Virus record (IMG/VR): IMGVR_UViG_3300042465_001831
Coordinates: 1-34,694 of that record
Direction: 5' to 3' (one strand)
DNA: 34,694 bases
From: a virus
A model generated the notes under the pieces. The model was not told the origin of the DNA. It ran no database searches and saw nothing but the letters and a program-made list of their open reading frames with translations. This document shows positions 1,153 through 34,555 of this stretch, piece by piece. How positions within the stretch are numbered: position 1 is the stretch's first letter; every line of letters begins with the position of its first letter. The translations under genes were made by a program, and so were the position numbers.

Positions 1153-1887
1153 TTAGCGGTTAGCAATCACTGCCGCTAAGTCATACAAACTACCACGGCG
1201 TTCAATACTGTGAGCCTTAATAATCTTATGCACCTGGCGTTGGCTAATGCCAAGCCATAAAGCTATTGCCTCTGCATCTAAAAAGAACTTACGGTTGGGA
1301 TTGCTCATCGCCAATGCCACCAGTCGCAATACAGTCCACGATTGCTTACACCCGAAACAAGTAACATCACTCATAAGGTTTTCTGCATCAATGACTACAT
1401 ATTTGCCACACTCATCAGTTGGGCAAGGAATCCGCCGGGGTTGCTCAACAAATTGCTTTGCAGCAGCCATACCCTTTGCGTGTTGCTCTTTAATCTCACC
1501 ATAGAAATCTGCTGCCCAATCTTGGCCTAATGTCCATTCAAGGTGATGTAGTTGGAAATTGCAGGCAACCTCAACCTCACGGTCAATACTTGATTCCTTC
1601 TTCAGTAGCGCGGGCGGTGTCAACTGCCTAGCGCTGCGAATCTCGGACTCCCAACTGTGTAGGATTCCTAGCAGTTCATTGCCCATTGAGTAATCGAGTG
1701 CATTGACATTGACCCCGATGGATCGCTCGGCGCTGACACTGCCACTGCCTGACCTACCTGGTGCGATGAAATCTTCAGCTTCGCGGCGCAGGAATGGGAT
1801 AGCCATAAGCCAACCAGTTATTGCCTTATGGCATCCACGGCATACGACTAATTCATTGGCTGGGCGCAGGCAGATGTTGCAGTTCAA
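1153..1887 (-). CDS. Zinc-ribbon protein with C-terminal helix-turn-helix
   Basis: This 244-residue protein opens with a CxxC pair (C3, C6) and a second (C16, C19), a typical zinc ribbon. Another Cys cluster near residues 154-180 (CPTDEC, then CFGC) forms a second ribbon. The C-terminal 40 residues (AIALWLGISQRQVHKIIKAH) look like a helix-turn-helix of the kind that reads a tandem or primosomal site. The domain set suggests a DNA-binding protein working with replication or transcription. Its start overlaps the stop of the 113-residue gene by four bases (ATGA), so the two are probably co-translated. I recognise the architecture from actinophages but no assigned function. Confidence 0.7.
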   Translation of the reverse strand: MNCNICLRPANELVVCRGCHKAITGWLMAIPFLRREAEDFIAPGRSGSGSVSAERSIGVNVNALDYSMGNELLGILHSWESEIRSARQLTPPALLKKESSIDREVEVACNFQLHHLEWTLGQDWAADFYGEIKEQHAKGMAAAKQFVEQPRRIPCPTDECGKYVVIDAENLMSDVTCFGCKQSWTVLRLVALAMSNPNRKFFLDAEAIALWLGISQRQVHKIIKAHSIERRGSLYDLAAVIANR

Positions 1888-2225
1888 AATGGCACCTTCT
1901 CACTGGTTGTGGATAACTTTGGGCGGCTGAAGTATTCAGGGGGTTGCTCGGCAAATACCGTGAGCGCCCTGCAACTATGGGTGGCAAGCACAATGGGATC
2001 GGCAACACCCATTCGCGTTGCCGTTCTTCGGGTTGCTTCAAAGGATAGGGCGGTGCGATGGATTTGGTAGGTGCCAACCCCATTAGTGAGTGCAATGACT
2101 TCTTCGACAAGGTTGAGTCGAGCCGTATCAAGTTTGATGTCGCACCGACTGGTTGCAGAGACACCTGCCCAAATCAGATTGCCACATTTTTTGCAACTGA
2201 TAGGTTTGAAATCTAACTCACTCAT
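1884..2225 (-). CDS. Hypothetical phage protein with N-terminal zinc knuckle
   Basis: A 113-residue protein starting MSELDFKPIS, with CKKC at residues 11-14 that may bind zinc with a later cysteine. The rest is helical and basic (TRRTATRMG) without a motif I can name. It directly follows the palindrome and repeat spacer after the primase-helicase gene and is coupled (ATGA overlap) to the zinc/HTH gene downstream. Position and zinc knuckle suggest a nucleic-acid-binding accessory to replication, which is inference only. AGGA lies about 9 bases before the ATG. Confidence 0.65.
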   Translation of the reverse strand: MSELDFKPISCKKCGNLIWAGVSATSRCDIKLDTARLNLVEEVIALTNGVGTYQIHRTALSFEATRRTATRMGVADPIVLATHSCRALTVFAEQPPEYFSRPKLSTTSEKVPF

Positions 2226-2262
2226 CGTAGGCGTTCCTGTACCGAGATAATGGTGTTCCTTT

Positions 2263-2286
2263 TTCCGTATCTATATAGATACGGAA
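2263..2286. repeat. Perfect 24-bp palindrome
   Basis: The half-site TTCCGTATCTAT is followed at once by its exact reverse complement, with no spacer. The outer bases belong to the GTTCC/GGAAC repeat family of this spacer. A spacer-free dyad suits a dimeric DNA-binding protein better than a transcript hairpin. Confidence 0.75.
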
Positions 2287-2318
2287 CGGAACGAACACCG
2301 ATTACGCTCATTTCTACC

Positions 2319-2345
2319 TGTGTTCCCTTTTTAAAAAGGAACACA
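2319..2345. repeat. Imperfect palindrome with GTGTTCC/GGAACAC arms
   Basis: Arms GTGTTCC and GGAACAC flank a TTTTTAAAAA core. One extra C interrupts the left arm. It carries two of the GGAAC-type repeats of this spacer. Confidence 0.65.
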
Positions 2346-2366
2346 AAAGGAACAGAACGGAACACC

Positions 2367-4469
2367 TCAACCCACCACCAAATGTGTGATTTCGGCATCC
2401 AAAAGGTTGAAATGGCTCTTTCCATCATCGGTGATATACAAAATAAAGGACCTGTCATTGCCCCGATTCTCGACCCAGCCACCTGCCAAAAGGTCGTTGA
2501 GGTGATCCCCAATGACTTCTTTGGACCCGTGGACACCTTCTTGAATCAATCGGCGAGTGCAACCAGGATGATTGTGGATAAACTCAATAACCTCTTTTGA
2601 CTTCTTAAACTCTTTGTTGGCCTCTAGCTCGTCCTCAAGTAATGGCACACCAATCACATATTCCATCAATGCCCTAGTCGAATCAATGGTGAAAACTGCT
2701 GCCTCTTGGGTTCTATCTGACTTTCTCCACATTCCAGCAATCTTGCGGATGAATCCAGGGCGGTCCTTAGTCACTCTCATTGTCAGCGTTCCTGTTCGCC
2801 CAGGGGCAAGTGCCTCAAGAGGCTCTACGAGATAGGCAGCGCCGTCAATGGTGGCAAGTTTTGCTTGCCCGCCGATGGCAAATCGCCCCCGTGTCTCTGC
2901 GTTCTTTGTAATGTGGTCAATAAGCACAACGGCAGCGCCTGAGGCGGTTGCTACTGTTCTTGGGAATATGCGCATCCAACGGGTAATGGCATCGTTATCT
3001 TTTGTCTCGCCACCCCACATTGTCAGGGATTCGGTTACACCGTCAATGATGATTAACTCTGCCGATTGTGGCTCAAGGATGGCTTGCCAATATGGATCGT
3101 CAACATCGCGTGGACCATCAGGGCGAATATAAGTAAAGTATTGGAGCAGATTTGCCCGTGATACGCCTAGTGATTTCATACGCCCAACCACATCTGAAGC
3201 ATCTGATTCAAAATCAATGTAGATAACCTTTTTGTCAGCCTTGAGGCACTCGGCGCTGGCAATTTGTGCTACCCACGATTTACCTGACTCAGATTCACCA
3301 TAGATAGAGTGAACACGGCCAGTGTAGATAAGGCCGTGACCATCTGAGCGCTTGAGGATGGTTGCAATCGGTGCCTGGAATAAGCCGTCAAAGTAATCCT
3401 TTAGGGCGATTGGTTTCCAACTGGATTCATCTTCATTGGATGCTTTTACCAAAGGTTCCAAAAGGTTACCTGAAGGCATCAGATTATTGCTTACATCAAA
3501 AGAATTAAGAGATTGCGCCCCGTAGCCTTGATTGCGTAAATCATTGGCTGCTGCCTTGAAATCTCCGCCGTGTTTGATAGTTGCAAAGAAGGCAAACTTG
3601 GAATATGAAGTTTCTGATTCAAACTGCGTTGAAGTAGTAAATACATAGAACTTATCGTTGCCATTGAAGTTGGTGGTGGCTGATATGCCTTCGGCCTTGC
3701 CTGGTCTGCGCCACACTGTTGCTTCGCCTTTGCGATAGACGATGCTCCAGCCAAGTGGCGTAAGTAATTCTTCCCAAGTGGTACGGGCATTGTAATCATC
3801 ACCAGGGGTCAGGATGCCATCGTGTTTGGTTGCTACTTCTTGTTGGATGCTTTCAGCTTTAGGCATCTCATCAAACATTGCAAAGATATTGTGCAGTGCG
3901 TTGCGTTGTTCCATTGTGATTGTTGGAATTGTCTCTATTGATCCGCCAATGAGAACCCAATTGCCCCCTGAAGGATGAGTGGCACCGCCACTGGGCGCGG
4001 TGATTGTAAAGCCACCTTCGCTTCGCGTTTCGGCCCATACATCCACACCGCCGTTTTCACCGGGCTTTCGGGCTAACTTAGTATTGCCTGGTAACTCGCC
4101 ATTGGATACACGATAAAGCCAATGAAGCCCGCCTGATGGTGTAATCTCGACATAACCAGCATTAAGGGTGTTCCACAAATCGCCAAGCCCTGAGTTATTG
4201 GCAATCTCTGCAATGTCAAGGTGCATCTTCTCGGCAACTGCTCGGCCTTCAAGTTCTAGCATCTCTAAATTGCCCGATACCTTGCCAGTAATAACTCCAA
4301 TGCCATCAACACCATCTTTGAACCACATGAGTAATTCATCTGCAACTGGCAGTTCTTGCTGAAATCTCTGCCAAGCAAACGCAGGTCGCTTGGAACCGTC
4401 ATTGGCAACTGGAACTACAGAGATGCCTTGCTTGAGAAATCGCAGAGAGATTGGTAGTAGTTCACTCAT
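2367..4469 (-). CDS. Bifunctional primase-polymerase / RecA-like helicase
   Basis: This 700-residue replication protein (counted from MSELLPISL) has an N-terminal prim-pol domain of about 190 residues, with DGSKRP, an LELEG strand and TPSGGLHWLYR followed by GVDVWAETRSEGGF. A RecA/AAA-type ATPase follows: Walker A GESESGKS at about 391-398 and Walker B LIIIDG at about 472-477. The C-terminus ends in a winged-helix-like segment (HPGCTRRLIQEGV). Together these make the primer and unwind DNA at the phage fork. I use the second ATG of ATGATGAGT, which overlaps the stop of the methyltransferase second half; a longer frame begins at 4505. The usual acidic DxD strand reads E-x-E here. No separate DNA polymerase was seen, so the phage probably borrows the host replicase. 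Confidence 0.85.
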   Translation of the reverse strand: MSELLPISLRFLKQGISVVPVANDGSKRPAFAWQRFQQELPVADELLMWFKDGVDGIGVITGKVSGNLEMLELEGRAVAEKMHLDIAEIANNSGLGDLWNTLNAGYVEITPSGGLHWLYRVSNGELPGNTKLARKPGENGGVDVWAETRSEGGFTITAPSGGATHPSGGNWVLIGGSIETIPTITMEQRNALHNIFAMFDEMPKAESIQQEVATKHDGILTPGDDYNARTTWEELLTPLGWSIVYRKGEATVWRRPGKAEGISATTNFNGNDKFYVFTTSTQFESETSYSKFAFFATIKHGGDFKAAANDLRNQGYGAQSLNSFDVSNNLMPSGNLLEPLVKASNEDESSWKPIALKDYFDGLFQAPIATILKRSDGHGLIYTGRVHSIYGESESGKSWVAQIASAECLKADKKVIYIDFESDASDVVGRMKSLGVSRANLLQYFTYIRPDGPRDVDDPYWQAILEPQSAELIIIDGVTESLTMWGGETKDNDAITRWMRIFPRTVATASGAAVVLIDHITKNAETRGRFAIGGQAKLATIDGAAYLVEPLEALAPGRTGTLTMRVTKDRPGFIRKIAGMWRKSDRTQEAAVFTIDSTRALMEYVIGVPLLEDELEANKEFKKSKEVIEFIHNHPGCTRRLIQEGVHGSKEVIGDHLNDLLAGGWVENRGNDRSFILYITDDGKSHFNLLDAEITHLVVG

Positions 4470-5202
4470 CATCTGCAACCATGCGCGAGATAATCCACTC
4501 CACAACAGGAACCGCTACCGCGTTTCCCATTTGCTTATATCGGTTTGAATCTGCCTGCCCATCGGTCCAATCATCAGGAAACCCCTGAAGGCGCTCACAT
4601 TCCATTGGTGTCAATCGGCGCACGACACCAGTTTCACGCACCATTGCATCAACTTGAGCAGTTATCTCACTTGATTGTGGTGATCGCGATGGATTATTTG
4701 ATGCTGAAAGTGTTGGTGCTACAATCTTAGGCTGAAATAATGTATGAAAATTTGATGTGGCTAAAGTAAAGGCCGTATCTGAAATCAATGGACCTTTGCC
4801 ACCACCCGGCTTGCCTTCCCTATCGCGCATTACTAAAGGTTCATCTGTAATAACAACTGCAGGTGCCTGTTGCCTATCTAATGTGTATGCAGGTGCGCCT
4901 TCAGCACCAATGCCAGTTCCATTTTGGTGCTTTTCTAACTCTCTTGCATCATCTATTGGAAATACCATCGGCACATTCCCCCCGCCTGTTCCATATCTTG
5001 AAATAACTGTTGGCACAATGCCATCTTCATACACCCGCACATCATTTACGCGAGTGCCATCAATAATAAGTACGGTGGCAAATGCTTCGCCGTTGTTATC
5101 CATTGCGTTCAATGTTGGCACTACCCCCCCCGCAATCCAAGTTTCGTAATCTTCATTTGTCTGCGCCCGCTTAGCTTTCGTGAATGACAAGATCGGTTGC
5201 AT
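4462..5202 (-). CDS. C5 cytosine methyltransferase, C-terminal part (target recognition and motifs IX-X)
   Basis: This 246-residue ORF has no catalytic motifs but ends with motif IX (RRLTPMECERLQGFPDDW, residues 195-212) and motif X (GNAVAVPVVEWI, 226-237) of C5 DNA methyltransferases. The first 190 residues are the presumed target recognition region. It completes the N-terminal half encoded just upstream in another frame, with a 32-base overlap. An AAGGG sequence 9 bases before its ATG means it can be translated on its own. The two halves may therefore work as a two-chain enzyme or arise from a one-base deletion in a formerly fused gene. Methylation would protect phage DNA from host restriction or mark it for other uses. 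Confidence 0.85.
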   Translation of the reverse strand: MQPILSFTKAKRAQTNEDYETWIAGGVVPTLNAMDNNGEAFATVLIIDGTRVNDVRVYEDGIVPTVISRYGTGGGNVPMVFPIDDARELEKHQNGTGIGAEGAPAYTLDRQQAPAVVITDEPLVMRDREGKPGGGKGPLISDTAFTLATSNFHTLFQPKIVAPTLSASNNPSRSPQSSEITAQVDAMVRETGVVRRLTPMECERLQGFPDDWTDGQADSNRYKQMGNAVAVPVVEWIISRMVADDE

Positions 5203-5899
5203 CCTTGTAATCCCTTGCTTTAAGTGCAGATGATTTTGAATCTACTTCGTAATCTCCGAATCCGCGCATACGCGCAACGCTTGCTCCAGTTGCGGTGGCA
5301 GTGTCTTTTCCCTTCGATTTGCTCTGCGCAAGATACCCAGCGCGGCCTTCGGCGATAGCGAGTATTTCTTCAGGTGATCTCCCTGTGTCTCCAAGACATC
5401 CGACAATGAACACTCTACGGCGGCGTTGGGGAACTCCGAAGTGTTGAGCATCAAGTACCCTGTAGGCAACGCGATACCCGCGCTCGACCAACGCTTCAAG
5501 AACAACGGCCATGTCTGCACCGTTGTTCGAGTTAAGTAAGCCAGGCACATTTTCGAGGATAAAATTTTGCGCTCTTGTTTCGTCAAGCAATCTGCAGATT
5601 TCCCAGAAAAGTCCTGATCGAGTACCACCCAATCCTGCTCGTTTTCCAGCCACTGATAAATCTTGGCAGGGGAATCCACCTGTGATGATTCCTGATCCTG
5701 GAATAAATCCTGCTGCGATAAGTTGTTCACCTGTTACCCCCGTTATGTCTCCAAATATGGTTGATTGTGGAAAATGTTTCTTCAATACTTCTTGTGCTTT
5801 TTTATCTATCTCAACTGATGCAACTACTTTTACCCCATTGCGTTCTAAGGCTAAATCAAAGCCACCAACGCCAGCAAATAATGAAACGGCAGTTCTCAT
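5171..5899 (-). CDS. C5 cytosine methyltransferase, N-terminal catalytic part
   Basis: This 242-residue ORF (from MRTAVSLFAG) carries motif I (SLFAGVGGFD), the PCQ catalytic motif IV with nucleophile C78, ENV motif VI at 116-118 and QRRRR motif VIII at 158-162. It stops (HES) before the motifs that bind the target and close the fold, which follow in a +1 frame as a second ORF. I choose the ATG at 5899 because it overlaps the FmdB stop as ATGA and has GGGGTGG just upstream; an ATG at 5911 also has an SD. A third ORF (5242-5730) is overprinted on it. Family identification is firm. Confidence 0.88.
   Translation of the reverse strand: MRTAVSLFAGVGGFDLALERNGVKVVASVEIDKKAQEVLKKHFPQSTIFGDITGVTGEQLIAAGFIPGSGIITGGFPCQDLSVAGKRAGLGGTRSGLFWEICRLLDETRAQNFILENVPGLLNSNNGADMAVVLEALVERGYRVAYRVLDAQHFGVPQRRRRVFIVGCLGDTGRSPEEILAIAEGRAGYLAQSKSKGKDTATATGASVARMRGFGDYEVDSKSSALKARDYKDATDLVIHES
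5242..5730 (-). CDS. Overprinted ORF within the methyltransferase gene (162 aa)
   Basis: A second open frame of 162 codons lies on the same strand, shifted +1 inside the methyltransferase. It starts with GTG, and a strong GGGGG ribosome binding site sits 6 bases upstream (5737-5741), which argues that it is translated. Its C-terminal half reads LNTSEFPNAAVECSLSDVLE, then KYSLSPKAALGILRRA and a basic LPPQLEQAL tail. From memory this closely resembles a short phage protein family usually found as a separate gene near Dcm-type methyltransferases. The motif-VIII DNA (FGVPQRRRRVF) encodes the NTSEFPNAAVECS stretch in this frame. Function unknown. It shares its frame with the methyltransferase second half, separated by a stop. 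Confidence 0.55.
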   Translation of the reverse strand: MNNLSQQDLFQDQESSQVDSPAKIYQWLENEQDWVVLDQDFSGKSADCLTKQERKILSSKMCLAYLTRTTVQTWPLFLKRWSSAGIALPTGYLMLNTSEFPNAAVECSLSDVLETQGDHLKKYSLSPKAALGILRRANRREKTLPPQLEQALRVCADSEITK

Positions 5900-6063
5900 T
5901 TGCCACCCCATCCTTCACCCTTAAAGATTGAAAGGATTGGCGTGTAGATACGCACCAATGGCTTTTCACAATCTTCACAAAATGGCAATTCTTTATTATC
6001 TATCGGCAAGTTCAATTCAAATGTTTGCTTGCATTGTTCGCATTTGTAATCGTAATTTGGCAC
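5896..6063 (-). CDS. FmdB-family zinc ribbon protein (55 aa, GTG start)
   Basis: A 55-residue ORF with a GTG start and a GGGGGAAC ribosome binding site just upstream. It opens MPNYDYKCEQCKQTFEL, the hallmark of FmdB-type zinc ribbons, with C8/C11 and C29/C32 as the zinc ligands. It ends IYTPILSIFKGEGWGGK, matching the usual FmdB tail. These small proteins are often called regulatory, but their function is not well established. The stop overlaps the ATG of the methyltransferase (ATGA), so the two are translationally coupled. The non-ATG start makes it easy to miss. Confidence 0.85.
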   Translation of the reverse strand: MPNYDYKCEQCKQTFELNLPIDNKELPFCEDCEKPLVRIYTPILSIFKGEGWGGK

Positions 6064-6679: not shown

Positions 6680-6787
6680 TTAGTTTGTTTCTAACTCTGT
6701 TGGTGGTGTGAGTTCAGCCAATTCTTTGGCAATGTCATTGATTGTTTTAGCGGGAAATCCGCAATCGCAACCATCACGCTCACACAT
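6680..6787 (-). CDS. Small cysteine-rich ORF (35 aa)
   Basis: This 35-residue ORF starts MCERDGCDCGFP, with cysteines at 2, 7 and 9, and ends in a short helix (IAKELAEL). It fills the gap between the Cas4-type nuclease and the next gene. Its ATG overlaps the nuclease stop (ATGTGTGA, 8 bases), and a GGTG lies just upstream. It is too short to judge a family; three cysteines in nine residues suggest a metal-binding peptide. Confidence 0.5.
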   Translation of the reverse strand: MCERDGCDCGFPAKTINDIAKELAELTPPTELETN

Positions 6788-9569: not shown

Positions 9570-10118
9570 CTAGACTCGCTGAATCTCAATCTGAAAAGGT
9601 GCGCTGGTGTTTATGTCATATTTGGCAGCAATTGCCAGCGCTTTAAGTATTTGTTCTTTTGCTGATTGAGATTTAGCAAGGTTTGGCAGTTGCCCAGCCA
9701 ATGCGCCAAGCGCGTAGGCACTGCCTGATCCAACTCCATAGAGTCCATCCGAAGATTGGGTGAGGCTCAAATCATCGCCAATTTCAAATATATTGCCAGC
9801 AAATGCCAGCAAATATGAATAACTGATTCCTTCTTTGGTGTAATCAAATCCCTGCAATTTAAAGGCAGCAATAATGCTTGGGATAATCTTGCGGCCAACA
9901 AAAACCGTTGGCTTGGTGCCATCGTAGGCTGGCGGTGTCCAGTTGTAGGTAAGAATGTCACCTGGCCTGCAATCACCGCTAACTGCCAACAGGTACTTTT
10001 TTAACTTCACGATCTTGGGGGTGGCAGGGGAAAGGATACGCTTATCCCCATCAGTCACCTGAGAGTCTGCCCCCAAAATGGCAAAATCAGGCCCCTGGAA
10101 GGCAATCAGCGTGGTCAT
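9570..10118 (-). CDS. HslV/proteasome beta-like Ntn-hydrolase (peptidase)
   Basis: This 182-residue protein starts MTTLIAFQGPDFAILGADSQ, the pattern of HslV and proteasome beta subunits in which a Thr after the initiator Met becomes the nucleophile. D18 and K35 align with the other catalytic positions, and GVGSGSAYALGAL matches the conserved GSG segment. It would form an oligomeric N-terminal-nucleophile peptidase. No phage ATPase partner is present, so a host unfoldase could supply substrates. It is the first gene of the early operon. There is no ribosome binding site, and a TACAAT box lies 6 bases before the ATG, so it is probably leaderless. Confidence 0.8.
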   Translation of the reverse strand: MTTLIAFQGPDFAILGADSQVTDGDKRILSPATPKIVKLKKYLLAVSGDCRPGDILTYNWTPPAYDGTKPTVFVGRKIIPSIIAAFKLQGFDYTKEGISYSYLLAFAGNIFEIGDDLSLTQSSDGLYGVGSGSAYALGALAGQLPNLAKSQSAKEQILKALAIAAKYDINTSAPFQIEIQRV

Positions 10119-32571: not shown

Positions 32572-34101
32572 CTATACCTGAATTGAAAAGAATCTTGCAA
32601 CTGGTGCTGGTGGCTCGGCTGGTTGAGTAGCACGATCATAACCAAAGATTGAAGCAACGGCGGCATCCACCTTACGGCGGCTACTTGCCTTTGCAACCAT
32701 AACACCACGGCTAGATTGTTTTGTTACGCAGTTGGCAATATGGCGGGCAAGTCGTTCATCTCCATCATGGGTAAATGATTCATTGACCACGGCTTCATAA
32801 AACTTTTGTGTTGCTGGAACCATATTCTGCGCACTGTTGGGATATGAAACAACAGGCAAGCCTTCTTCATCCAACACCATAAATGTTCGCTGCCAGCGTG
32901 CAGGGTCAAAGACAATCTCTTTTACATTGAAGCGTTCATCGCGGAATGTATCTACAATTGTTTGCTCAACTTCAGCAACCGGGATATGCCAGCCTTGTTC
33001 AGCATCATCAGGGCGTTCCCATAAGCCAACAACCATTAAGTGTGGCTTTTCGCCACCCAATAACCACATGACAAGGGCGGTTGAGTCATTTGAAAAGGCA
33101 CCATCAAAGGCCAAAATAACTTCTTCACCAGGTTCAGGGAATCTATCTTTATCCTCTAGGGCTTCCCAAGCACCTGTTGGCAGCCATGCAACTGAAGTGC
33201 TTACCCAACAATTAAGGCGCTTGGTTCTAAATTCAGCTTCAGGTGTACGCAAAACTGCCGATGCAATTTCCTCTGCATCCAGCAAATCGTTATACCCTGG
33301 ATTTGATTCAAGCCAAAGTGCTTGGTCACGGTGATCGGCTTCAGGTTGTGTTGGCTCCCACCAAGAAAAGAAAAATGATGGGTCCTTCTTCTCACCCTTT
33401 ACAACCTGTTGGCCGTATTGGTAAAGCGAGTAGCAAAGAGAATCTTGGCCGTTGCTTTGTGTCTTAACGCCTGCAGTTGTGATGCCCAAGAGAAGTGAAT
33501 CAGCACGCGCACCACCAGCAAGGCTAAGAACATTCCAAAGTTCCCAAGAAGGTTGGGCGTGGACTTCATCAAAGATAACAAGCGGGGAAGGATTCAAACC
33601 TTCTTTTGAATATGCTTCGGCAGATAGTACGCGGTACACGCTGCCTTTATCTTTGAATTCGATTGCATCGCGGTAAAGCGTGAACATTGAAGATAGTTCT
33701 TCATCTAACTCAATCATTCGCTTTGCAGTACCAAACACGATTCGTGCCTGGTCGCGGTCTGCTGCGCAAGAATAAATCTCTGAACCGTTGCCGCCAAGTG
33801 TTAAACCAGCAAGGCCCATTGATGCTGCCAATGCGCTCTTGCCATTCTTCCTAGACATTCCGACCAGGGCGGTGCGGTGGCGAAATCTGCCATCTTCACG
33901 GCGGGCAAGTGTGTGCTTGAGTAACTCTTTCTGCCATCCACGCAGTTCAATTAACTTACCTGCAGGTGAGGCTACAGAATCTTTTGTAACTCTGCAAACG
34001 GCTTCGGCAAAGTTTGCATACAACTCGCCATCGCCACGCTCTTGATCTTCAATTGGCACTGGCGTTAACCAGCGTGGTGGCCAACCTGCAACATCAGCCA
34101 T
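32572..34101 (-). CDS. terL: Terminase large subunit (ATPase and nuclease)
   Basis: A 509-residue terminase. Walker A is GMSRKNGKSA (81-90), and Walker B with catalytic Glu is LVIFDEV (174-180). ITTAGVKTQS (207-216) is the coupling motif. The nuclease has D333 (AFDGAFSNDS), D399 (VFDP) and D479 (KVDAAVA), the three metal-binding acids. It is the DNA-translocating motor and cuts at the packaging site. Its start overlaps the end of the small subunit gene (8 bases). Confidence 0.92.
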   Translation of the reverse strand: MADVAGWPPRWLTPVPIEDQERGDGELYANFAEAVCRVTKDSVASPAGKLIELRGWQKELLKHTLARREDGRFRHRTALVGMSRKNGKSALAASMGLAGLTLGGNGSEIYSCAADRDQARIVFGTAKRMIELDEELSSMFTLYRDAIEFKDKGSVYRVLSAEAYSKEGLNPSPLVIFDEVHAQPSWELWNVLSLAGGARADSLLLGITTAGVKTQSNGQDSLCYSLYQYGQQVVKGEKKDPSFFFSWWEPTQPEADHRDQALWLESNPGYNDLLDAEEIASAVLRTPEAEFRTKRLNCWVSTSVAWLPTGAWEALEDKDRFPEPGEEVILAFDGAFSNDSTALVMWLLGGEKPHLMVVGLWERPDDAEQGWHIPVAEVEQTIVDTFRDERFNVKEIVFDPARWQRTFMVLDEEGLPVVSYPNSAQNMVPATQKFYEAVVNESFTHDGDERLARHIANCVTKQSSRGVMVAKASSRRKVDAAVASIFGYDRATQPAEPPAPVARFFSIQV

Positions 34102-34555
34102 TCTTCTTTTGCTGCTCTAACAACTGGGCCAACTTACCCTTAGTCGTTACTTCAGCAACCCCCAACTTACTACGATCAATCGGCGTTAAGCCAAGCAATG
34201 AAAGCAATTTGATAATGTCACCTTCAACGGTGTTTAACATTCCAAACAAAGGATTTGCGTAGGCGTAACCCTTGTCGGTGTAAAGAACAAAATCTGATTT
34301 GGCCATCTTCGCCTGTAGCTCGTACTTCTTGTCCATCTTCTCGCAAAGTTCAATCAGCAACTTGCTATCGCTGGTTGCAATCCACGGTGCTATCTCGCGC
34401 ACATCTGACCACAACTTTTTGCCAGCATCGCTAAGGTGCAATGGCGCATCGCTTTTGATTTGTGGTAATGCAATTACATTCTTGAGATCAGGCAGTTTTT
34501 GTTTGCCTGGGTTTCCGTTCTTTCTCTTTACTTCATTCGGCTTTGGTGCGCTCAC
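34094..34555 (-). CDS. terS: Terminase small subunit (P27-like)
   Basis: A 153-residue protein starting with GTG (MSAPKPNEVKRKNGNPGKQK), with a basic N-terminal arm, then LHLSDAGKKLWSDVREIAPW and a helical KKYELQAKMAKSDFVLY. It matches the P27 family of small terminases in the DNA-binding and oligomerisation segments. GGAAACAA precedes the GTG. Upstream lie 139 non-coding bases to the window end; with the first 66 bases these are the likely packaging-site region. Confidence 0.85.
   Translation of the reverse strand: MSAPKPNEVKRKNGNPGKQKLPDLKNVIALPQIKSDAPLHLSDAGKKLWSDVREIAPWIATSDSKLLIELCEKMDKKYELQAKMAKSDFVLYTDKGYAYANPLFGMLNTVEGDIIKLLSLLGLTPIDRSKLGVAEVTTKGKLAQLLEQQKKNG

Follow-up and report, generated by a model that had tools for sequence, protein, structure and literature searches.

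The window analysed here is a virus record of 34,694 nt (IMGVR_UViG_3300042465_001831, positions 1 to 34,694). Based on its terminase, portal, protease, capsid, tail-fibre and WhiB-like gene families, it is assigned to a tailed phage, and its host is probably an actinobacterium. No close DNA relative was found by blastn among 50,697 named phages, the tRNA search of the window was empty, and a scan of genome contigs for cellular relatives returned 18 pattern matches, none of which is a relative. Among the 29 ORFs of the window scanned against PHROGs, which are part of its ORFs, no integrase family and no replicative DNA polymerase besides the PrimPol was matched. A repetitive fibre protein gives one stray PHROGs match to a 'DNA polymerase' family.

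A spacer of 141 nt lies between a gene for a PrimPol-helicase and a gene for a small zinc-site protein. The sequence-only reading of this DNA had noticed eight pentamers, a spacer-free 24-bp palindrome and a second, A/T-cored palindrome in it, and had located it between the replication gene and a zinc-knuckle gene. All of these were recovered by computation, at the following positions:

1884-2225, minus strand: zinc-site gene, 113-aa protein with a CxxC...HxC site (phrog_10480), adjoining the spacer in relatives too
1908-1916, minus strand: exact DnaA box TTATCCACA, inside the zinc-site gene
2226-2366, minus strand (operon-sense strand): origin-like spacer of 141 nt, from the PrimPol-helicase gene to the zinc-site gene, with an architecture conserved in relatives
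2233-2363, both orientations: eight copies of GGAAC/GTTCC, the proposed iterons, a unit that relatives replace in concert
2248-2304, minus strand: hairpin (dyad 2), nested, with the outer stem GGTGTTC/GGAACACC extended by TAAT/ATTA (dyad search, folding, covariation)
2263-2286, no strand: perfect, spacer-free 24-bp palindrome TTCCGTATCTATATAGATACGGAA, tip of dyad 2 (computed)
2302-2310, minus strand: TGAGCGTAA element between the dyads, of which TGAGCGT is kept in relatives
2319-2345, minus strand: hairpin (dyad 1) with an A/T core (dyad search, folding, covariation)
2367-4505, minus strand: PrimPol-helicase gene (PrimPol, RecA/RepA-like AAA_25 helicase, C-terminal winged helix)
2370-2639, minus strand: predicted C-terminal winged helix, residues 623-712, proposed iteron reader (AlphaFold2, Foldseek, VIA-align 2)
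2481-2561, minus strand: helix 2, turn and helix 3, residues 649-675, where the unit-tracking residues cluster
2573-2581, minus strand: exact DnaA box TTATCCACA, inside the PrimPol-helicase gene

Repeats and palindromes of the spacer

The eight GGAAC/GTTCC units start at 2233, 2255, 2283, 2288, 2322, 2338, 2349 and 2359. In 200 first-order Markov simulations of the window, this pentamer reached at most five copies per 141 nt. The count alone is not unique, since at other places of the real window some pentamers attain 8-12 copies in 141 nt, several of them in the collagen-like fibre gene. The palindrome TTCCGTATCTATATAGATACGGAA is the longest of the window, the next longest measuring 14 bp, and the longest palindrome in 60 simulations had a mean of 15.2 bp and a maximum of 24. 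It forms the tip of a 57-nt imperfect dyad (2248-2304) that the earlier reading had left unmentioned, and the second palindrome, CCTTTTTAAAAAGG at 2326-2339, lies within the imperfect dyad 2319-2345. The spacer folds far above shuffles on both strands, with z scores of -6.9 and -6.6 as ssDNA and -8.2 as RNA.

Both palindromes had been described as lacking a T run behind them. The single match of the terminator search in 1800-2800 (2447-2464) falls within the PrimPol gene, and a terminator reading of the spacer was rejected. A known RNA family was rejected as well, as the spacer is without a match in Rfam. A simple scan for sigma-70-like sites found none in the spacer and none in 1800-2800. A change of GC skew had been suggested as a check, and no clear switch is seen at the spacer.

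Conserved layout and changing unit in relatives

Scans of viral contigs, together with three named phages, yielded 290 loci with the gene, the window included; one contig may give several loci, and 167 of them are distinct in protein end plus spacer. Two loci that are pieces of the window itself (L082 and L083) were taken out of the relatives' set. The co-variation, DnaA and pair tests used the loci whose top 6-mer has at least four copies and which have at least 150 nt after the stop, i.e., 140 loci, or 139 once L317 was dropped. Loci without repeats right at the stop are absent from the co-variation set because the selection demanded four copies, and the distant loci L085, L086, L240 and L241 are excluded from it.

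The architecture is kept in the relatives: several direct repeat units, two hairpins and, in most, TGAGCGT, which 89 of 139 loci and 18 of 22 clusters carry within their first 220 nt, in one orientation or the other. (The spacers of L070-L076 have an inverted TGAGCGT in an uninverted repeat layout, both relative to the clade of the window.) Among the 158 loci that extend for 100 nt or more beyond the PrimPol stop, 147 have one 6-mer in at least four copies within 220 nt of it. At least five copies are present in 134 of the 139 loci, which were pre-chosen for at least four, vs. none of 126 in a control stretch 380-600 nt on. Fewer than four copies at the stop are found in 11 of the 158 loci. 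Ten of these low-copy loci and L317 were examined because their repeats were absent or too sparse at the stop, and in 8 of these 11 the cluster stands further downstream, just before the zinc-site gene, and carries the unit of its protein clade. As to the remaining three, L261 has no cluster in the stretch examined, the PrimPol frame of L075 is shortened, and in L207 a spacer with mixed GTTCC and GTACC stands at the stop.

What changes among the relatives is the unit itself. The types seen comprise GTTCC, GTACC, GTGGTG, CGTTGTG, GTGCCG, GTTTCCC, CCCTTTCCC and AGTTCCC, and further CCTCGTCCC, CCTCGCCCC, CCGCGCC, CCGTTCC, CCGAACC, CCGATCC and AACCCTTCC, with copies standing in both orientations. 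The unit differs by clade and sometimes between close relatives, and a switch affects nearly all copies of a spacer, the unpaired direct repeats too. In the mixed spacers (L015, L028 and L207), GTACC repeats occur along with either a TTCC...GGAA tip or one GTTCC copy that leads the series. Conservation of the pentamers had been named as a check; it holds for the spacer architecture and fails for the pentamer sequence, which is replaced, and simple conservation of the pentamer was thus rejected. The sequence-only reading had also stated that an unconserved spacer or an undetected gene in related genomes would count against it; neither was found.

Evaluation of the hairpins used the GTTCC/GTACC clade, with 37 distinct spacers. 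In the two-hairpin structure 94.1% of cells are paired, vs. at most 56.5% when it is slid, and the outer and inner helices of dyad 2 are 99.8 and 98.6% paired over the 37 sequences with double changes present. Cells changed on both sides number 86 compared to 29 in shuffles, and none of the 500 shuffles reached 86. The pairs that show a double change are in modest excess (9 vs. 6.8; 18 of 500 shuffles), and further pair types are not raised (14 vs. 15.8 in shuffles). A stem-loop downstream of the gene is conserved despite sequence change. Mismatches in paired columns, read on the operon-sense strand, are G.T in 43 cells vs. A.C in 2, stemming from few independent inherited changes; this excess hints that it is the operon-sense strand, as ssDNA or RNA, that forms the hairpins.

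Sites matching the DnaA box also gather at the locus. The only two exact TTATCCACA sites of the 34.7-kb window lie one on each side of the spacer. Over the 139 loci their density is 0.511 per kb near the PrimPol stop (-700 to +900 nt) vs. 0.0067 per kb elsewhere, an enrichment of about 75-fold (109 near, 6 far; 120 near and 13 far over 162 loci). For 100 permuted 9-mers the near density has a mean of 0.008 and a maximum of 0.145 per kb. An exact box near the site is present in 10 of 22 clusters and missing from 12, and the offsets vary between clusters. DnaA boxes cluster at the candidate origin. A second exact TGAGCGTGA is located at 6774-6782 (minus strand), by an exonuclease gene and distant from the spacer.

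Several loci deviate in their surroundings. A gene with MKHIVMFSGGIGSW..., which we take from this motif to be PP-loop-like, stands between PrimPol gene and spacer at L012:5855-6703 and similarly in L025 and L318; a 170-aa ORF with DPFCG/DPPYSL occupies the same place in L287 and, judged by its start, in L278 and L317; and L314 has a tRNA-Gly there. The slot before the candidate origin spacer seems to be an insertion hot spot. In L154, L160, L161, L162, L163 and L168 a copy of the clade's own unit is embedded in the start of the zinc-site gene. Among the distant loci, the gene of L240 and L241 (about 27-28% identity) is followed by dense repeats, which are GGGTAAATTACCC-like and GTGCACGG-like. 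Arthrobacter phage Peas (L086) has AGTGAC repeats and inverted copies behind the PrimPol gene, some of which lie in the next annotated gene, and Streptomyces phage KimJongPhill (L085) lacks repeats of this kind at that place.

Co-variation of the repeat unit with the flanking proteins

The PrimPol-helicase gene counts 712 codons. Its listed start is a TTG, and the true start is probably an ATG at residue 12 or 13. In Pfam, the PrimPol domain (PF09250, residues 21-174, E 2.6e-10) and an AAA_25 RecA-like helicase (residues 390-536) both score above the cut-offs. The KaiC and RecA models also match the helicase part, where an SF3 helicase is not matched, and the Pfam listing to E 10 holds no DUF927 or D5-type (Primase_Cterm) model. 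The PrimPol domain is of the ORF904 family, and PDB matches to ORF904 are weak (E 0.2 and 0.3). An AlphaFold2 model of the C-terminal 113 residues predicts a winged helix with a core pLDDT of about 90, in which helix 2 spans residues 651-657 and helix 3 residues 662-675. The closest solved folds among the matches listed by Foldseek and VIA-align 2 are MarR-type winged helices, the best VIA-align 2 match having Z 11.2 and an rmsd of 5.7 over 84 aligned residues. The C-terminal domain of the P4 alpha protein is absent from the best 50 VIA-align 2 and Foldseek matches, which excludes nothing.

Repeat dissimilarity, taken from the shared 5-mer profile, was compared with the distance in 40-residue windows of the protein while the rest of the protein was held constant. 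Within the winged helix (residues 621-700) the partial r amounts to 0.24-0.52; it is 0.08-0.26 in the 601-640 stretch that reaches into the domain and at or below 0.17 everywhere before residue 601. For residues 632-680 the observed value is 0.39, vs. at most 0.105 in 500 label permutations. The top 13 protein columns all fall in residues 629-694, with E663, Q655 and V658 leading. The strongest unit-tracking columns lie where helix 2 of the model ends, in the turn, and where helix 3 begins, which are the positions that winged-helix domains usually read DNA with.

Because of the need to limit shared ancestry, pairs with non-overlapping paths were chosen on a tree of residues 13-620. Residues 649-675, the helix-turn-helix (HTH), differ at 43% of sites in 21 different-unit pairs vs. 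7% in the 40 pairs that share a unit. As the core also diverges more in the former (12.5 vs. 5.4%), the ratio of HTH to core divergence was used: its median is 4.33 for different-unit and 0.77 for same-unit pairs (p = 7e-7), and 2.91 vs. 0.98 in a second length range (p = 4e-5). The flanking residues 622-648 and 676-710 are raised in different-unit pairs too, less so than the HTH. The close pair L165/L238 has six differences in the 27 HTH positions.

Individual residues follow the unit in one clade. The CG-containing units CCTCGTCCC and CCTCGCCCC go with E655 and R666 in all eight sequences, Microcystis phage MinS1 among them, whereas with other units in the same clade I655 is found in 11 of 11 sequences and R666 in one (L234, despite a unit without CG). 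In the 140-row alignment used for this phage, the helicase of MinS1, which has the CCTCGTCCC unit, shares 95-98 of 254 residues with the same-unit group and 91-101 of 254 with the other-unit group, while its winged helix shares 21-23 of 56 vs. 16-18 of 56. In the clade of the window, no single residue splits GTTCC from GTACC, and L067 (GTACC) and L053-L057 (GTTCC) all read KEAIGER.

Third codon positions at identical residues also track the unit across codons 641-680 (partial r 0.38), and those of codons 681-712, nearer to the spacer, do not (0.06). Synonymous sites of the former stretch tracking the unit indicate that exchange of winged-helix segments together with matching spacers contributes. 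In our reading this weakens a stepwise point co-evolution and leaves the matching of unit and domain intact. By co-variation, the repeat unit tracks the C-terminal winged helix of the PrimPol-helicase, its proposed reader.

The zinc-site protein behaves differently. Its family keeps C11, C14, H83 and C85, and its gene adjoins the spacer in 134 of 139 loci. Its partial r with the repeats is at most 0.10, and in the path-disjoint comparison different-unit pairs (2.43) hardly depart from same-unit pairs (2.15; p = 0.17). The proposal that the zinc-knuckle protein is the partner of the repeats found no co-variation in its favour, and the protein was rejected as repeat reader on these two results. 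Foldseek with its model returned no solved fold at E <= 0.001.

A candidate replication origin

We propose that the spacer is very probably the replication origin of the phage, in which iterons would be read by the initiator's own C-terminal domain and hairpins would serve primase loading. The possible origin named in the sequence-only reading gains support from the conserved architecture, the clustering of DnaA boxes and the co-variation of unit and winged helix; the concerted change of the unit and the pairing of the hairpins are seen in the sequences as well. Binding, DnaA use, helicase loading, hairpin priming and origin activity are what we infer. In such a mechanism, the C-terminal winged helix of the PrimPol-helicase would bind the short repeats, possibly assisted by host DnaA from the flanking boxes. 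The RecA-like helicase ring would then be loaded and open the duplex, and the PrimPol domain may be loaded, or start priming, at hairpins extruded in the single strands. Since no replicative polymerase is found among the scanned ORFs of the window, host replication enzymes would extend the PrimPol primers.

Other functions can be weighed on the same data. A transcriptional operator, through which the PrimPol-helicase or another regulator controls the operon via the repeats, is unlikely. It would agree with short direct and inverted sites that adjoin a regulator-like winged helix, the closest listed folds of which are MarR-type repressors, and the sites could have both roles here, just as in many iteron plasmids the same sites serve as origin and operator. 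Yet, the spacer lies between two genes of one direction, the simple scan gives no sigma-70-like promoter in 1800-2800, exact DnaA boxes surround the spacer, the reader domain belongs to a replication enzyme, and no result specifically favours an operator. It is very doubtful that the hairpins act as an RNA element in the mRNA of the replication operon, in processing, stability or translation of the zinc-site gene: the RNA fold, the G.T over A.C mismatches on the operon-sense strand and the pairing-preserving changes in the hairpins fit such a role, but few inherited changes account for the G.T cells, direct repeats that are unpaired switch along with the paired ones, unit identity tracks a DNA-binding domain, and an Rfam match is absent.

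Joint exchange of neighbouring DNA might by itself make the winged-helix end and the spacer co-vary, without binding. The tracking of the unit by synonymous sites of codons 641-680 is what this would produce. We nevertheless regard it as quite improbable, considering that codons 681-712, nearer to the spacer, do not track the unit, that the zinc-site gene across the spacer shows no tracking, that unit and domain also match where another gene separates them, and that MinS1 shares unit and HTH residues while its helicase is no closer. A role in packaging, recombination or attachment (as a cos, pac, attP or resolution site) is disfavoured and extremely improbable. AttP and resolution sites consist of a palindromic core with repeated arm sites, an anatomy that the spacer resembles; however, the terminase genes are at the opposite end of the record (32572-34555), no integrase family was matched among the 29 ORFs scanned against PHROGs, and DnaA boxes and the coupling to the primase-helicase argue against such a role.

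As a candidate replication origin, the spacer resembles the origins of SaPI/SCC elements, pRN1 and RSF1010 by analogy and exactly matches none of them. PMC7581432 describes, for SaPI and SCC, iterons directly downstream of the initiator helicase gene that are read by the helicase C-terminal domain, and direct repeats that Cch2 of SCCmec needs for binding. Similar to SaPI Rep and SCC Cch2, the short direct repeats here are directly downstream of the initiator gene. The C-terminal winged helix predicted here co-varies with the unit and may be specific for the repeats. The SaPI/SCC helicases are of the DUF927, D5/Primase_Cterm type, whereas here a RecA/RepA-like AAA_25 helicase is fused to a PrimPol; the spacer here also differs from SaPI/SCC by its pair of covarying hairpins, by DnaA boxes on both sides and by the many types of unit. 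For the Sulfolobus plasmid pRN1 (ORF904), PMC4234260 reports a required stem-loop just downstream of the PrimPol-helicase gene, of which the structure is kept and the sequence varies; stem-loops of this kind are also proposed there for Bordetella phages. The likeness would consist in a PrimPol-helicase with a C-terminal winged helix and a stem-loop downstream; in that account pRN1 has an SF3 helicase and one 100-nt stem-loop without iterons, whereas iterons and two hairpins occur here.

The layout of the P4 origin differs from the spacer studied here. The P4 alpha protein, as outlined in PMC4234260, likewise joins primase, helicase and winged helix in one chain and binds origin repeats, with a Toprim-type primase unlike the PrimPol here. 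The same source describes RSF1010 oriV as iterons with priming hairpins, served by an iteron binder, a helicase and a primase; these are three separate proteins (RepC, RepA and RepB') compared to one chain here, and the helicases are likened by description. Iteron and hairpin anatomy is present as in an RSF1010-type oriV, with a putative use by the primase. In geminiviruses, according to PMC12548392, repeat positions are conserved while a unit of 5-6 nt differs between close relatives and has its cognate initiator. These are rolling-circle ssDNA plant viruses with an initiator unrelated to the PrimPol-helicase. Among the titles and abstracts listed by literature searches in a library without most subscription papers, none describes this origin family.

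Ordinary in principle, the candidate origin is unusual in that it brings these features together on a RecA-like helicase and offers a strong natural series of unit changes. In this series, formed by the relatives, domain and unit have repeatedly changed in concert, with the rest of the enzyme and the layout conserved. This renders two questions testable: the base-specificity code of the winged helix, and the reason for the continual turnover of iterons at the origins of related replicons. On the core tree, path-disjoint branches account for at least 21 unit differences. Tentatively, and with the odds somewhat against it, winged helix and iterons could make up an exchangeable origin-specificity cassette under diversifying selection, by which lineages escape origin sharing with co-infecting relatives, satellites or origin-sensing defence. 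If true, its diversification would be the tailed-phage counterpart of geminivirus iteron diversification. Many uncultured phages would also gain a candidate origin from this work, and bacteria with few genetic tools might gain small replicons.

Elsewhere in the window, an HslV-family peptidase PHROG protein is encoded at 9570-10118 (minus strand), between the early genes and the fibre genes. The N- and C-terminal parts of a C5 cytosine methyltransferase are found on two overlapping ORFs, 4462-5202 and 5171-5911 (minus strand), which may represent a frameshift, a split gene or an assembly error.
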